Shown: in pieces, positions 1 to 23,249 of the stretch | How the letters are laid out: each line of letters begins with the position of its first letter | How positions within the stretch are numbered: the stretch's first letter is position 1 | Assembly: GCF_000739575.1 (NCBI RefSeq) | Contig: NZ_BBJO01000009.1 | Coordinates: forward strand, 124,001 to 188,000 | DNA from: Halobellus rufus | GTDB lineage: Archaea; Halobacteriota; Halobacteria; Halobacteriales; Haloferacaceae | Length of the DNA: 64,000 bases | Direction: 5' to 3' | Translations under genes and position numbers: made by a program | The notes under the pieces: generated by a model | Database searches by the model: none | Told to the model about the DNA's origin: nothing | Seen by the model: the letters and a program-made list of their open reading frames with translations, nothing else

Positions 1-427
1 CGAGGACCTCGCCGTCTTTCGAGTCGAGACTCACCATCACGCGGCCCGGGTACTCCGCCGAAACGTCTGCGACCAACTCGGGGTTCTCGACGGCGGCGGT
101 CCCGAGGATCACGCGCGCGACGCCTCGGTCGAGGAGGTCGGTGGCGTCGGCTGCGGTCCTGATCCCGCCGCCGAGTTGCACCGGGACGCCGACCGCATCG
201 ACGACGGCCTCGACGGCGGCGGCGTTCGCGCGCTCGCCCTCGAACGCGCCGTCGAGGTCGACGAGGTGCAGCGTCTCCGCGCCGGCGTCGACCCAGCGGC
301 GGGCCGCCTCGACGGGATCGCCGTAGCGCTTCTCGGTGCCGCGTTCGCCCTGCACGAGCTGGACGACCTCGCCGTCCTGCATGTCGACGGCGGGGATGAC
401 CTCGAAGTCGGGGAAGAGATCGCTCAT
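1..427 (-). CDS. hisA: HisA, ProFAR isomerase (histidine synthesis), 3' end outside window
   Basis: Cytosolic phosphoribosylformimino-AICAR ribotide isomerase, an Amadori rearrangement in histidine synthesis. The visible 142 residues begin MSDLFPDFEVIPAVDMQDG, with the family's catalytic Asp in PAVDMQ (residue 15), then LHLVDLDGAFEGE and LGGGIRT, as in the N-terminal half of the HisA barrel. The ATG at 427 is the natural start. The gene runs off the left edge, so about 100 C-terminal residues (including the second catalytic Asp) cannot be seen. HisI lies 4 kb away in the same orientation. Confidence 0.95.
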   Translation of the reverse strand, partial: MSDLFPDFEVIPAVDMQDGEVVQLVQGERGTEKRYGDPVEAARRWVDAGAETLHLVDLDGAFEGERANAAAVEAVVDAVGVPVQLGGGIRTAADATDLLDRGVARVILGTAAVENPELVADVSAEYPGRVMVSLDSKDGEVL

Positions 428-504
428 ACCGACTCCTCCGCGACGATGCGGCCTAAAGTCTCCGGAGCGCCGTGGCGACTCCCGGTCCCCAGACCGACTG
501 GCTC

Positions 505-735
505 TCACTCCGTCAGCGGCAACAGCACGCCGAACACGAACGGCGAGAGCAGCGCGATCGCCACGCCGATCCACTCGGCGTCGACGAGCAGCGCGTGTTC
601 CCACGCGGGGACTGCCGCCCCGGTCGCCGCGATCGCGAACTCGCCGAGCGCGCCGAGCGCGAACAGTCCGATTCCGAAGAGGAAGCTCCGTTTCGTCAGG
701 GTCGGGTAGTCGACGTCGCCGTACCGTCCTGCCAT
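505..735 (-). CDS. small conserved membrane protein, unknown function
   Basis: A 76-residue protein with a short polar N-terminus (MAGRYGDVDYPTLTKRS) and two hydrophobic helices at about residues 16-38 and 47-72, linked by a short loop (AAVPAWEHALLVDAEW). The basic residues before helix 1 suggest an N-in topology. I recognise no enzymatic motif. It lies upstream of hisA in the same orientation with a 77-bp gap. The Tyr-Pro-Thr-Leu-Thr-Lys-Arg-Ser stretch resembles small haloarchaea-specific membrane proteins, but the function is unknown. Confidence 0.7.
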   Translation of the reverse strand: MAGRYGDVDYPTLTKRSFLFGIGLFALGALGEFAIAATGAAVPAWEHALLVDAEWIGVAIALLSPFVFGVLLPLTE

Positions 736-893
736 ACGCGTCGACGCGCCGGCGTCGTACTACAGGATTTCGCTTGGGGAATCGACGACGAAACCGGGGC
801 GAATCTGCGATTTCGACAACTCCCGAGACGGCTGCCGCCGATCGGTACCGCCGGACCGAAAGGGCCACAACGCCCGTTGCGGTACGGAGGGCT

Positions 894-1154
894 ATGACGA
901 CGGCGCTACTCGAACTGGTTCCTGTGCTGCTCGAACTCTCCGCGTTCGGCATCGGCGCGCTCGGACTCTCGCTCGTCGGCGCGTACGTCGAACGGTTCGC
1001 GATCGTGACCGCCCAGCACGGACAGCCGATGCTCGCGCTCTGGGCGGCCCTGATGGGCGCAGTCGCGCTGTACTTCGCGTACTCGCTCACGACAGACCGC
1101 GTGGTTCCGGCGCTCGCCGATCTCACCGGGCGGGCGGCGACGTCGGCGGAGTGA
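894..1154 (+). CDS. small membrane protein, unknown function
   Basis: An 86-residue protein starting at the ATG at 894 (MTTALLELVPVLLELSAFG). An upstream in-frame extension exists but has no natural start region and reads as low-complexity Arg/Ser. Two hydrophobic segments (about residues 5-30 and 46-66) are separated by a polar loop (VERFAIVTAQHGQP); the tail is short and soluble. No recognised domain. It is transcribed toward glmM with a 78-bp gap. Confidence 0.6.
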   Translation: MTTALLELVPVLLELSAFGIGALGLSLVGAYVERFAIVTAQHGQPMLALWAALMGAVALYFAYSLTTDRVVPALADLTGRAATSAE

Positions 1155-1232
1155 GCGCGGGCGGAATTCGCCCACTCCTGCCGGCTCCCCGTGTCGCAAC
1201 CGCTTTCACTCACGCCCGAGGAGTGACACCCA

Positions 1233-2600
1233 ATGAAGCTCTTCGGTTCGAGCGGGGCGCGCGGCGTCGTCGGCGACGGCCTGACGCCCGAGTTCGTGCT
1301 CCGCATCGCGAAGGCGGCCGGGACGGTGTGGGAGACCGACCGCGCGGTCGTCGCCCGCGACACGCGAACGACGGGGGAGATGCTGACGAACGCGGCGACG
1401 AGCGGCCTCGAGAGCGTCGGTCTCGACGTCGACAGGCTCGGCCCGACCCCGACCCCGAGCGCCGTCCGCTACGCCGGCGAGAACGAGCGGCCGGCGATCG
1501 TCATCACGGCCTCGCACAACCCGCCGGAGTACAACGGCGTCAAACTCGTCGGCGCCGACGGCGTCGAACTGTCCGTCGAGGACCTCGAGACGATCGAGTC
1601 GCACGTGCTCGCCGAGGACTTCGCCACCGCCGCGTGGGACGGGGTCGGCGAGTCCCGGCGAGTCGACGCGGCGAACCGCGAGTACGTCTCCGACCTGCTC
1701 TCGGCGATCGACCGCGAGTCAATCGCCGCCGCCGACCTCACGGTCGCGCTCGATCCGGGCCACGGCGCGGGCGCGCTGACGAGCCCCGAGTTCTTCCGGC
1801 GGCTCGGCTGCGACGTCGTCACCGTCAACGCCACCCCCGACGGGCACTTTCCCGGCCGCGACTCGGAGCCGGTCGAGGAGAACCTCGGGGACCTGAAGTC
1901 ACTCGTGCGGGCGGCCGACGCCGACGTCGGGATCGCACACGACGGCGACGCCGACCGGGCGGTCTTCGTCGACGAGCGCGGCGAGTTCGTCGCCGGCGAG
2001 GCGTCGCTGGCGGCGCTGGCGGCGGCCGCGCTCGAACCGGGAGACACCACCGTCGCGGCCGTGAACGTCTCCCAGCGGCTCGTCGACGTCTGCGAGGGCG
2101 TCGGCGCGGACCTCGAACTCACGCCGATCGGCGCGACGAACATCATCACGCGCATCCGCGAACTCGTCGCCGCCGGCGAGCGCGTCCCGGTCGCCGGCGA
2201 GGGAAACGGCGGGGTCTTCTTCCCCGAGTACCGGCTCGTCCGCGACGGCGCGTACGTCGGCGCGAAGTTCCTCGAACTCGTCGCCGAGCACCCGGTCTCC
2301 GAACTCGTCGAGCCGTACACCGACTACGAGAACGTCCGCGTCAACCTCTCGTACGACACCGAGCGCGAACTCGACGCGATGCTCGCCGCCGCCGCCGACT
2401 TCGCCGACGCCGCGGACGCCGAGCCGAACACGACCGACGGTTACCGCCTCGACTACGGCGACGCGTGGGTGCTCGTCCGCCCGTCGGGGACCGAGCCGAA
2501 GGTGCGCGTCTACGCCGAGGCGAGAGACGGGGACCGCGCGCGGGAACTGGCCGACGGCGCCGCCGACGCGCTCCGTGCCGCGCTCGACAGACTGGACTGA
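1233..2600 (+). CDS. glmM: phosphoglucosamine mutase GlmM (phosphohexomutase family)
   Basis: Interconverts glucosamine-6-P and glucosamine-1-P on the way to UDP-GlcNAc; archaeal homologues may also act on glucose phosphates. 455 residues, the usual length. The phosphoserine loop is ITASHNPPEYNG (Ser94), the Mg site is DGDADR (residues 237-242), the sugar-specificity loop is GEGNGG, and the C-terminal phosphate loop is RPSGTEPKVR. All four active-site loops are intact. The ATG at 1233 gives the conserved MKLFGSSGARG start. The exact sugar substrate cannot be decided from sequence. Confidence 0.93.
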   Translation: MKLFGSSGARGVVGDGLTPEFVLRIAKAAGTVWETDRAVVARDTRTTGEMLTNAATSGLESVGLDVDRLGPTPTPSAVRYAGENERPAIVITASHNPPEYNGVKLVGADGVELSVEDLETIESHVLAEDFATAAWDGVGESRRVDAANREYVSDLLSAIDRESIAAADLTVALDPGHGAGALTSPEFFRRLGCDVVTVNATPDGHFPGRDSEPVEENLGDLKSLVRAADADVGIAHDGDADRAVFVDERGEFVAGEASLAALAAAALEPGDTTVAAVNVSQRLVDVCEGVGADLELTPIGATNIITRIRELVAAGERVPVAGEGNGGVFFPEYRLVRDGAYVGAKFLELVAEHPVSELVEPYTDYENVRVNLSYDTERELDAMLAAAADFADAADAEPNTTDGYRLDYGDAWVLVRPSGTEPKVRVYAEARDGDRARELADGAADALRAALDRLD

Positions 2601-2619
2601 CGGCCTCTCCGAACCCGTT

Positions 2620-2910
2620 TCACAGAGAGAGCACGCCGAACAGGAGGCAGAGCAGGCCCAACGCGATGAGGACGACCCCGCGCTCGAAGTCGACGTCGTC
2701 GCCGCGGTCCGCGGCTCCCCCACCGTCGCCATCGCCCGGTTCGTCCCGCCACTCGGCTGCATCGGTCGGTTCCTCCGGCCACCCGACCGTTTCGGCGGGC
2801 GCCTCGGACCGCTCCAGTCGGCGGACCGCTCGCTTCGTCCGCAGGGCGCGTGCGCCGTAGAACAGACAGAACGCGCCCGCGAGGAACGCGGCGGCGGAGA
2901 CGACGACCAT
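2620..2910 (-). CDS. haloarchaeal membrane protein with two helices
   Basis: A 96-residue protein: an N-terminal hydrophobic helix (residues 1-20, MVVVSAAAFLAGAFCLFYGA), a basic patch (RALRTKRAVRRLERSE), a long acidic and glycine-rich linker (about residues 37-72), and a C-terminal helix (GVVLIALGLLCLLFGVLSL). Both ends are membrane-embedded with a central soluble loop. No catalytic motif. It is convergent with glmM (19 bp between stops) and 6 bp from the end of the next upstream gene on its own strand, so it is likely co-transcribed with hisI and the coiled-coil gene. Confidence 0.65.
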   Translation of the reverse strand: MVVVSAAAFLAGAFCLFYGARALRTKRAVRRLERSEAPAETVGWPEEPTDAAEWRDEPGDGDGGGAADRGDDVDFERGVVLIALGLLCLLFGVLSL

Positions 2911-2916
2911 CGGCGG

Positions 2917-4137
2917 TTACAAGCTCGTTCCGGAAGTGCCCCCATCGGCGTCGCCCCCGGCGGCTGACCCGCCTTCTAGGACGGCAGAGAGGCGATCGCG
3001 GACGTCTCGAAGGCGCTCGAGTTCGGCTGCGGCCGCGCCCGACCGCACCCGCTCGCGCGCCTCGGCGTCGAGTTCCTCGTGCGCGCGAGCGACGAACCGG
3101 AGGTCCGCGTAGTCGTCGCGGCGCGTCAGGTCCCGAACGGCTCTGAGCCGCGCGACCGTCTCCCCGCTCGCGAACCGACCCAGCAGCGACGTCGCCTCGC
3201 GGGCCCAGAGGCGGAGCGTCTCCGCGTCCGGCGGCGGCAGCGACACCGTCAGCGGCTCCGCGGAGAGCCGCTCGAGGAACGTGCGGTGGACCGCGACGGT
3301 CGTCTGCAACAGCGCGGGGTCCTCAGCGTAGTGATCGAGCTTCGAGCCGGTGTAGTCGGCGTACTCCAACAGCGTCGGGATCGGCTCGTCGGCGTCGGGG
3401 CTCTCGCGGACGAACTCCCGCAGGTCACGCGGCGGGGCGTCGAACGCGACGAGCGGGAACGACTCGGCGCGTTCGAGGAGGCCGATCACGTCCGCGGCGG
3501 GGGCGGAGTCGTAGAAGGACCGAAACTCCTCGGTGACGGCGTCGTTGTACGCCTCGATCGGCTCGCGGAGCTGCTCGACGGGGGCGTCGAGGTCGGCGTC
3601 GGCGAACGCGAGCATCTCCTCGCGCCGCTCGATCTCCTCCTCGAGGTCGCGCAGGTACAGCTTCGCGTCCCGCTTCGCCGCCGAGACCGCCTCTTTCGCC
3701 TCCTCGCGGCGGTCGAGGAGGTCGACGTAGTCCGCCGCGGGTTCGAGGTCCGCGCGGGCGGCGTCGAAGTCGTCCTCGCTCAGCCGGCGGCGGTCCATCC
3801 GCTCGCCGGCGGCGTCGAAGGCGTCCGCCGCTGGGACGCCCTCCTCGAGGTCGTCGACGAGGTCGAGGAACTTCCCCTGGAACTCCACGTACGCCTGGAA
3901 GTCGCCCGTTCCGGTCGCCGAGCCCTCGTAGCGATCGAGCAGGCCCATCGCCTTCCGGTACGTGTCGGCGACGTCGACGACGACCTCCTCGCCCACCTCG
4001 TCGATCTCACTCTCGACGCGCTCGTACCGCGCTCTCGCCGCGCGGAGGTCCTCGATCCGCGATTCGGCGGTCGCGACCGCGCTCTCGACGCCGTCGGAAC
4101 CGCGGGCCTCGCCGTCGATCGCGTCTGTATCGGCCAT
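2917..4137 (-). CDS. conserved haloarchaeal coiled-coil protein, unknown function
   Basis: A 406-residue, highly acidic, alpha-helical protein beginning MADTDAIDGEARG at the ATG at 4137. That start leaves only 2 bp after the hisI stop, so the two are almost certainly co-transcribed. Heptad-like helices run over about residues 20-60 (AESRIEDLRAARARYERVES) and 135-185 (LEEEIERREEMLAFADAD). The C-terminus is Gly/Ser/Thr-rich and disordered. It resembles the domain-of-unknown-function proteins found beside hisI in haloarchaea. No enzymatic signature is visible. Confidence 0.8.
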   Translation of the reverse strand: MADTDAIDGEARGSDGVESAVATAESRIEDLRAARARYERVESEIDEVGEEVVVDVADTYRKAMGLLDRYEGSATGTGDFQAYVEFQGKFLDLVDDLEEGVPAADAFDAAGERMDRRRLSEDDFDAARADLEPAADYVDLLDRREEAKEAVSAAKRDAKLYLRDLEEEIERREEMLAFADADLDAPVEQLREPIEAYNDAVTEEFRSFYDSAPAADVIGLLERAESFPLVAFDAPPRDLREFVRESPDADEPIPTLLEYADYTGSKLDHYAEDPALLQTTVAVHRTFLERLSAEPLTVSLPPPDAETLRLWAREATSLLGRFASGETVARLRAVRDLTRRDDYADLRFVARAHEELDAEARERVRSGAAAAELERLRDVRDRLSAVLEGGSAAGGDADGGTSGTSL

Positions 4138-4139
4138 CG

Positions 4140-4505
4140 TCAGTAGACGTCGTCGGGGTCGAACACGCGCTCGCCGACGTGCTCGCCGTCGATCGTTCGG
4201 TAGAAACAGGAGCGGTGACCGGTGTGGCACGCGCCGCCGGACTGCTCGACGAGGTACAGGAGCGTGTCGGCGTCGCAGTCGACGCGGACCTCCTCGACCG
4301 ACTGGGTGTGCCCGCTCGTCGCGCCCTTCTCCCAGAGCTCGTCGCGGCTGCGCGAGTAGTAGTGCGCCCGGCCCGTCTCCCGCGTGCGTTCGAGCGCCTC
4401 CGGGGAGACGTACGCCAGCATCAGCACCTCGCCGGTGTCGGCGTCCTGTGCGACGGCGGGGACGAGGCCGTCCTCGCCGAAGTCGATCTCGACGTCGTCG
4501 GTCAT
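4140..4505 (-). CDS. hisI: HisI, phosphoribosyl-AMP cyclohydrolase
   Basis: Hydrolyses the adenine ring of phosphoribosyl-AMP in histidine synthesis; Zn and Mg dependent, cytosolic. 121 residues, a stand-alone HisI without a fused HisE. Diagnostic motifs are [18 protein letters not shown], the metal-binding DCDADTLL, and the zinc cysteines in [11 protein letters not shown]. The ATG at 4505 gives [18 protein letters not shown]. It leads a minus-strand operon with the coiled-coil gene (2 bp gap) and probably the small membrane gene. Confidence 0.96.
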
Positions 4506-22084: not shown

Positions 22085-22205
22085 TGGGATCCGTTAGTGG
22101 CCGCAGCACTAACACGGCTTCGGTCTGGGCGGGATTACGCAACGGGTAGTGGTTACGAGATGGTTTCCTCAGAAAGTGAGTGAAGACTTGCAAACGCTAC
22201 GATAC

Positions 22206-22739
22206 GGTTCTGTTGAAATCCTCTCCGTGATATATTTGAGAATAATCGGTAAGTACAGATATTATTTTTGTGAAGACCTAATGCTATCAAACAAGTAAGA
22301 TTCAATTGTGTTAATGATGAGCACAATACGAACACTCACTTCGTTAGCTAAAGACGTCAGGAAATCCTACAATTATTGGAAGAATTATCGCGGAGAAGAA
22401 ATAGTCATCCAATCTGTCGAGTTTTCTGAAATGGAAGGACGAGTTAAATACGGAATTACCGGAACCGTTGATGAGGTACAGTCGTTACCTCCCGGATTCA
22501 TTCTCCGAGAAGCTGAAGAATTTTATAACACAGAAACATTTGAGACAAACCAATACGGGACACCGGTGGAGGGACGATCATTATCTGGAGAATATCACAA
22601 TAAGATATTTGTTTCATTTGATAGTATAGACCGAATCTCGTTTACTGAGGAGGGAACTGATGAATGAGGTATTTAAGAAACCCCACTTATCGGCTGTGTC
22701 ACCGTAGATAGTGTGTGACCAATAGATTTCAACAGAAGC
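22206..22739. mobile_element. 534-bp mini insertion element with IS6-like ends
   Basis: The left end GGTTCTGTTGAAATC (22206-22220) and right end GATTTCAACAGAAGC (22725-22739) are inverted repeats, 14 of 15 bases matching. Directly outside lie CTACGATAC (22197-22205) and CTACGACAC (22740-22748), an 8-of-9 direct repeat like a target duplication. The interior is AT-rich, unlike the roughly 68% GC surroundings, and holds one gene. GGTTCTGTTG resembles IS6/IS257-family ends, but no transposase is present, so it would need one in trans. The family assignment is inferred. Confidence 0.6.
22314..22667 (+). CDS. hypothetical protein, AT-rich cargo gene of the mini element
   Basis: 117 residues from the ATG at 22314 (another ATG follows at 22317). 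Low GC and AT-rich codons (AAA, ATA, TTA) set it apart from every neighbour. The N-terminus is basic (SLAKDVRKSYNYWKNYRGEE); the rest is acidic with many beta-type stretches (IFVSFDSIDRISFTEEG). No signal peptide, membrane helix or known motif. It does not look like a transposase. Acquired DNA. Confidence 0.6.
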   Translation: MMSTIRTLTSLAKDVRKSYNYWKNYRGEEIVIQSVEFSEMEGRVKYGITGTVDEVQSLPPGFILREAEEFYNTETFETNQYGTPVEGRSLSGEYHNKIFVSFDSIDRISFTEEGTDE

Positions 22740-22890
22740 CTACGACACCTATTCCGTAAGCATCGACTATTTTCAACAATCGTCGTCCTATTGGTGAAAT
22801 TACTACCGCAGCGTAGCCGCCTCACCGTCTGTTCCTAGGATATTCTACCGCGAGCGAGGCCGAAGGCCGAGCGAGCGGCGTCTTTTTGGT

Positions 22891-22947
22891 CCAGCTTTTT
22901 GCAACGAGTGGTGCGCCGGAGGCGCACCCGAGTCAGCAAAAAGCTGG
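22891..22947. repeat. nested perfect hairpin between the mini element and DUF424
   Basis: The outer arms CCAGCTTTTTGC (22891-22902) and GCAAAAAGCTGG (22936-22947) are perfect 12-bp complements. Inside, GGTGCGCC (22910-22917) and GGCGCACC (22921-22928) form an 8-bp stem around GGA. The T5 run after the minus-strand stop of DUF424 could act as its terminator. The 22749-22890 stretch before it shows no gene. Confidence 0.5.
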
Positions 22948-22949
22948 AT

Positions 22950-23249
22950 TCACATCCAAAGAAGCTGCGCGTGCAGCGTCCCGTCGACCGAGAGCACGCG
23001 CTCCTCGTCGACGATGCCGGCCTCGACGGCGACGGACACGGCGCGCTCGCCGACGAGGTTGGCGACGCTGGCGCGGGTGAGGCTGTCGACGACGGCGTCG
23101 GCGTCGACCTCCTCGGCCTCCTCGCCGCCGTAGAACGCCTCGGTCACGTCGAGTTCGATCTCGCCCTCGACGTAGGTCTCGCCGAGGCAGTCGGGGTCGC
23201 AGACGGAGACGAGCAGGCCGTCCGACGTCTGTCGTTCGCGGAGTAGCAT
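22950..23249 (-). CDS. DUF424 family protein
   Basis: 99 residues from the ATG at 23249 (MLLRERQTSDGLLVSVCDPD). The archaeal DUF424 pattern includes VSVCDPDCLGETYVEGEIEL and RASVANLVGERAVSVAVEAG. It is a soluble alpha/beta protein whose family links it to RNA or translation, but no function is established. It sits 5 bp after the TPR gene in the same operon. Confidence 0.85.
   Translation of the reverse strand: MLLRERQTSDGLLVSVCDPDCLGETYVEGEIELDVTEAFYGGEEAEEVDADAVVDSLTRASVANLVGERAVSVAVEAGIVDEERVLSVDGTLHAQLLWM

Follow-up and report, generated by a model that had tools for sequence, protein, structure and literature searches.

A transposase-less haloarchaeal insert with IS5-type ends beside sufS, probably a mobile insertion cassette

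The 64,000-nucleotide stretch analysed here (the window) carries beside sufS a short AT-rich segment bounded by repeats, which raises the question of whether it was inserted by transposition and, if so, by which transposase. A sequence-only reading had proposed a mini insertion element with 15-bp inverted ends flanked by a 9-bp direct repeat, enclosing AT-rich DNA with one gene and no transposase. All of these components are present. The arms, GGTTCTGTTGAAATC (22206-22220) and, in reverse complement, GCTTCTGTTGAAATC (22725-22739), match at 14 of 15 positions; the direct 9-mers CTACGATAC (22197-22205) and CTACGACAC (22740-22748) agree at 8 of 9 and enclose 534 b. GC content is 0.389 (38.9%) in the element vs 0.652 and 0.664 in the kilobase on either side, and ORF reading gives one main frame (116 aa, ATG 22317) and zero transposase.

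Judged by comparison with the family of related elements described below, the bounds are 22206-22740 (535 bp), a one-base shift from the first reading. The target duplication is also better read as 8 bp, TACGATAC/TACGACAC (7/8), than as the 9 bp first proposed. C22740 was assigned to the element because family termini start with GGC and clean duplications in the family measure 8 bp; given such a duplication, the first base of the left 9-mer (C22197) is taken as coincidental. The right terminus reads GGCTTCTG where most of 25 other aligned right ends read GGCTCTG, a one-base insertion. This indel and the single base at which the duplications differ bear out the earlier opinion that the insertion is not very recent, and with its altered termini the window copy may now be immobile. 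The features, with the evidence for each, are as follows:

22175..22205, + strand: target, a palindromic repeat dispersed throughout the genus, of which this is a degenerate copy's right end (genus comparison)
22198..22205, no strand: left 8-bp target duplication TACGATAC (single copy in the empty site of G005; family 8-bp duplications)
22206..22220, + strand: left terminal inverted repeat GGTTCTGTTGAAATC (family consensus GGCTCTGTTGAAATCCT)
22206..22262, + strand: left end with conserved subterminal sequence CCTC..CCGTGAYAKATTTG..GATCGGTAAGTACAG (comparison with related ends)
22317..22667, + strand: cargo gene, 116 aa from the ATG, 119 aa from the GTG at 22308 (relatives 30-39% identical)
22680..22740, - strand: right end, ~60 bp of conserved subterminal sequence (aligned right ends)
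22725..22740, - strand: right terminal inverted repeat GGCTTCTGTTGAAATC, with one base inserted relative to the family (right-end alignment)
22741..22748, no strand: right target duplication TACGACAC, 7/8 (repeat comparison; family duplications)

The occupied site was compared with the same locus in the genus. A search with the joined flanks gave end-to-end matches in three genomes (G005, G011 and G007). In G005 the exact target is uninterrupted, ...GACTTGCAAACG-CTACAATAC-CTGTTC, with a single copy of the repeat and no insert: this is the empty site that the sequence-only reading had proposed to look for in close relatives. The G011 and G007 matches align across the gap but miss part of the target sequence, and the exact target bases are kept in G005 only. 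The gap between sufS and the next gene measures 326 b in G005 vs 869 b in the window, and the difference, 543, equals 535 + 8. The order of sufS and this next gene, which encodes a 99-aa protein, is kept without an insert of such size in 8 of the 16 other genus genomes (L099, L100, L101, L103, L104, L107, L108 and L110). The empty site, the gap arithmetic and the family of homologous ends support the mobile insertion that had been suspected, and the segment is a transposition insert. No second copy was found in the 81-contig draft genome, and the body of the element has no match in 60 genomes of relatives.

The insertion lies where a degenerate half copy (22175-22205) of the dispersed palindrome ends. 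This repeat, of ~84 b (TATAGTAGCGTTTGCAA ... TTGCAAACGCTACTATA), has many copies in most genus genomes, for example at loci L130, L131, L132 and L133-L147.

To which family do the ends belong? The same termini (GGCTCTGTTGAAATC) occur elsewhere in the genome that carries the window, where an element of 1215 bp, its termini matching at 15/15, contains the gene for a 275-aa DDE_Tnp_1 protein; NF033579 identifies the protein as IS5 (225 bits vs a cut-off of 140). The intact candidate helper, at C81:106838-107662, has 275 codons and no stops. Its element has no clear duplication, and it matches the window element in its termini better than in its subterminal sequence. Of 60 genomes searched, this one among them, 47 hold relatives of the transposase, as do 277 plasmid records; among the 30 listed plasmid matches, two are annotated as ISHla2 and ISHxa2. 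In 6 of the 30 loci examined (L068, L070, L071, L072, L075 and L076), a GGCTCTGTTGAAATC-type terminus goes with a perfect 8-bp duplication and an 80%-type transposase. These six elements measure 1304-1598 bp, longer than the transposase requires, and several have an ORF behind it. Larger units with 8/8 duplications were also found: one of 2206 bp with a GNAT gene on a Halarchaeum plasmid, one of 2592 bp with a PAS/histidine-kinase gene on a Haloplanus plasmid, and the Halopiger ISHxa2-type copy, 2490 bp long with two further genes, one for an RDD protein. At L209 (ISHla2-type; 2/8), L212 and L213 the candidate bounds lack a duplication, and at L097 no candidate bounds were found.

From these comparisons we assign the window ends to the IS5-family group NF033579, with GGCTCTGTTGAAATCCT termini and 8-bp duplications. 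The window element has the termini of elements encoding an IS5 transposase; since it encodes none itself, it is non-autonomous and not an insertion sequence. The ISHla2- and ISHxa2-annotated elements share with the window group the terminus GGCTCTGTTGAAATC in front of the transposase; in contrast to the window element they encode the enzyme, and the 8-bp duplication is shared by the ISHxa2-type copy only, the ISHla2-type candidate bounds giving 2/8. Neither name was found in any open-licence PMC paper.

The family was then delimited in 249 fetched loci (962,337 b, overlapping) by requiring both termini, each with no more than 2 mismatches in 13, at a distance of 250-4500 b from each other, and a duplication of at least 7/8. 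This gave 31 distinct elements, 26 with 8/8 duplications, and none in 10 controls with scrambled 13-mers. Thirteen encode a near-complete IS5 transposase, one (E20) keeps a remnant, and 17, the window element included, have none; because the loci had been chosen for bearing ends or transposases, 17/31 establishes existence and is neither a frequency nor a census. E4 and E7, at 90% identity, do not count as independent. The 7/8 threshold excluded two candidates from the window's own genome, whose duplications agree at 6/8 (L039 2639-4617, with DUF4238, and L047 2125-2590).

Cargo differs among the transposase-less elements, and some of it lacks a family assignment. E24 carries Amphi-Trp, E14 PAS and DUF7344, and E15 HalOD1 with a DUF7344-like domain just under its cut-off. 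E1, in the genome of the window, carries a type 2 isopentenyl-diphosphate isomerase-type gene and a 118-aa membrane-type protein; the same 118-aa-type protein is found in E12, from another genus, with 80% aa identity. The interiors of E1 and E12 are 86.5% identical over 416 b, yet they are bounded by different end types, and this points to exchange of cargo and ends between elements. L041 (G000:C67) holds at 2162-4187 an element of 2026 bp that lacks a transposase, is flanked by a perfect 8-bp duplication and carries a type 2 isopentenyl-diphosphate isomerase-type gene.

Similarity extends inward from the termini. Searched in 392 genomes, the right end proved conserved over ~60 b; at E <= 0.01 it matched in 25 of them, counting the window's own genome, and the weakest of these matches are short. 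The left end resembles those of E12, E24 and E15, and the window's subterminal types at both ends are common to these cassettes. A left-end search with the end of E12 gave matches in 209 of the 392 genomes, many of the listed ones covering only the first 21-38 bases, and this number is not taken as a cassette count. Left and right subterminal sequences are unlike each other, as would be expected of asymmetric ends that have to be recognised by a transposase. An autonomous element combining exactly the two subterminal types of the window element was not found.

We read the window element, with a probability of roughly 85%, as an archaeal mobile insertion cassette with IS5-type ends that depends on an IS5-family transposase acting in trans. 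This enzyme would come from another place in the cell, the C81 helper being the candidate, and would bind the termini and the conserved subterminal sequences, pairing with the window ends. It would excise or copy the cassette and integrate it with an 8-bp stagger, giving an 8-bp duplication, here beside sufS in the dispersed palindrome. The cassette so left has two asymmetric IS5-type ends enclosing one gene, and no transposase.

An alternative that differs in origin, and that we consider unlikely while taking it seriously, is that the element derives by internal deletion from a passenger-bearing IS5 element, having lost its transposase and being still mobilised in trans. Such deletions happen, as E20 keeps 31 transposase residues at one end only, and in the GGCTCTGTTGAAATC group the length of most transposase-bearing members leaves room for passengers. 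The window element, however, has no transposase remnant, and in its left subterminal sequence it resembles the cassettes, not the transposase-bearing elements. The other possible origin is that new ends came to flank a gene.

Much less probable is that an IS6 transposase moved a mini-element of its own family, as the sequence-only reading proposed from the look of the ends. IS6 termini have a GG tip, a cTGTt core, a caaa motif and a length of 15-20 bp (as given in excerpts of PMC7986276), and two own-genome IS6 copies also have perfect 8-bp duplications, a length that does not discriminate since the IS5 group makes 8 bp too. The resident copies argue otherwise: among seven PF13610 (IS6-type) matches in the genome, five have clear terminal repeats, and these read GGCACTGTCTAGTT or GGTCGTGTTTAGTT, with GGTAGTGTTTAGTT on one side of one copy. 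At L060 the best candidate repeat is GGCAGTGTTCAGAT, and at L061 none was read. The window termini are thus not those of the resident IS6 copies with readable ends; they match, as do the subterminal layout and the 8-bp duplications, the IS5-family elements, where IS5 transposases sit inside termini of this kind. Moreover, E15 (L175, G364:C35, ~421-1120) holds a complete 700-bp IS6 element with termini GGCACCGTCTAGTT and duplication CTGTAACC (8/8) of its own, which is a later insertion, and five queried IS6 transposases match none of the 31 elements except E15. On the other termini of the resident copies and the nesting in E15, an IS6 origin was rejected.

Least credible, and refuted by the empty site, is that no mobile element exists and chance repeats surround an AT-rich islet: such repeats alone are not rare in the window, but the right end is conserved in 25/392 genomes and many sister elements have duplications. 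When inverted 15-mers matching at 14/15, separated by 200-3000 b and flanked by repeats of 7/8 or better, are counted, the real window has five pairs vs 0-2 per dinucleotide shuffle, and such a pair turns up in 6 of 20 shuffles; the repeats by themselves are not beyond chance. The insertion stands above chance because of the comparison of occupied and empty sites and the family of homologous ends.

How does the cassette reading relate to known systems? Like mobile insertion cassettes (MICs), the window element is bracketed by inverted repeats of an IS, carries a passenger gene instead of a transposase, and has a target-site duplication (7/8; empty site in G005). It is not a MITE (multicopy, short, non-coding; reviewed in PMC10969869), being single-copy and encoding a protein with relatives. 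According to excerpts of PMC3913671, MIC231 of Bacillus cereus is mobilised in trans by the IS231A transposase, and MIC231 and mic-qnrD of Proteeae likewise have IS inverted repeats, a passenger for the transposase and a target duplication; for the window element trans-mobilisation would fall to the intact candidate helper. These two are bacterial with other IS ends and duplications, whereas the window element has IS5-type ends, an 8-bp duplication, a haloarchaeal host and virus-type cargo. MICs are also treated in PMC3129680 (excerpts). Transporter IS (tIS; excerpts of PMC3129680 and PMC7986276) have passenger genes too, but keep a transposase. By description alone, the window element resembles ISH2/HqIRS32, which the excerpted text of PMC3119063 presents as haloarchaeal, ~520 bp long, with one non-transposase ORF and no transposase; that ORF-bearing MITE is described there as ISH2-type. 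Excerpts of PMC6563490 (2019) state that composite transposons with diverse passenger genes were undetected in archaea, and those of PMC10544981 describe a single haloarchaeal transposon passenger gene. Among the listed matches in open-licence PMC papers, no title concerned archaeal mobile insertion cassettes.

The cargo has relatives in 4 of 391 other genomes, plus Halorubrum coriense (scan of genome contigs); a Halomicrobium urmianum plasmid, probably one of the same four, gives one distant weak match (E 5e-2). The relatives are 30-39% identical and share a core YW..Y.G....I ... G..V..LPPGF ... FVSF.S (L066 was left out of the alignment). In G129, beside a pleolipovirus-type provirus, the relative follows a betapleolipovirus-type NTPase (phrog_1979), and the surrounding stretch also has a spike homologue and an integrase; a tyrosine-type integrase is near the relatives in G309, H. 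coriense (by sequence reading only) and the Halomicrobium plasmid. The cargo thus probably came from a virus or an integrated element. The cargo has no family assignment in Pfam, PHROGs, NCBIfam or PADLOC, the sole Pfam match being DACZ_N (E 0.14, below its cut-off). With tblastn against phages the cargo matched only staphylococcal tail proteins (best listed E 8e-3), taken as chance, and the G129 relative nothing; a scan of IMG/VR gave no cargo relative. A structure model from a two-row alignment (mean pLDDT 42.7) was too poor for a fold search.

The widespread IS5 group takes two forms, passenger-bearing elements and cassettes that lack the transposase, and is present on chromosomes and plasmids of several haloarchaeal families. 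Archaea, viruses and plasmids are thereby given a route of gene exchange that can be tested, and such cassettes could account for some of the AT-rich orphan genes that stand isolated. Speculatively, and with the odds against it, one IS5 transposase group might run a haloarchaeal cassette economy, in which free-standing end pairs capture, exchange and spread arbitrary single genes, ends and cargo reassort, and the window element captured a virus gene. In that doubtful scheme the cargo would range over virus genes, small membrane proteins, a pilin, HalOD1, PAS and histidine-kinase proteins and an IDI-2-type gene; if true, it would be a transposase-driven functional counterpart of integron cassettes.

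Three further observations were made. At L038 (G000:C78, 3700-6850), eight IS5-type termini cluster within ~3.1 kb, with several small ORFs between them; this may be a hotspot or an array of cassettes. E19, a 1843-bp transposase-less element, lies at L200 on the Halobellus limi plasmid NZ_CP031313.1 (33000-38000), a stretch with two annotated cation:proton antiporter pieces; its ORFs look like antiporter fragments in separate frames. Finally, a second dispersed intergenic repeat, GCGAGCGAGGCCGAAGGCCGAGCGAGCGGC...TCCAGCTTTTTGC...GCAAAAAGCTGGA, is found at window positions ~22851-22950 and has many partial copies in the genus.
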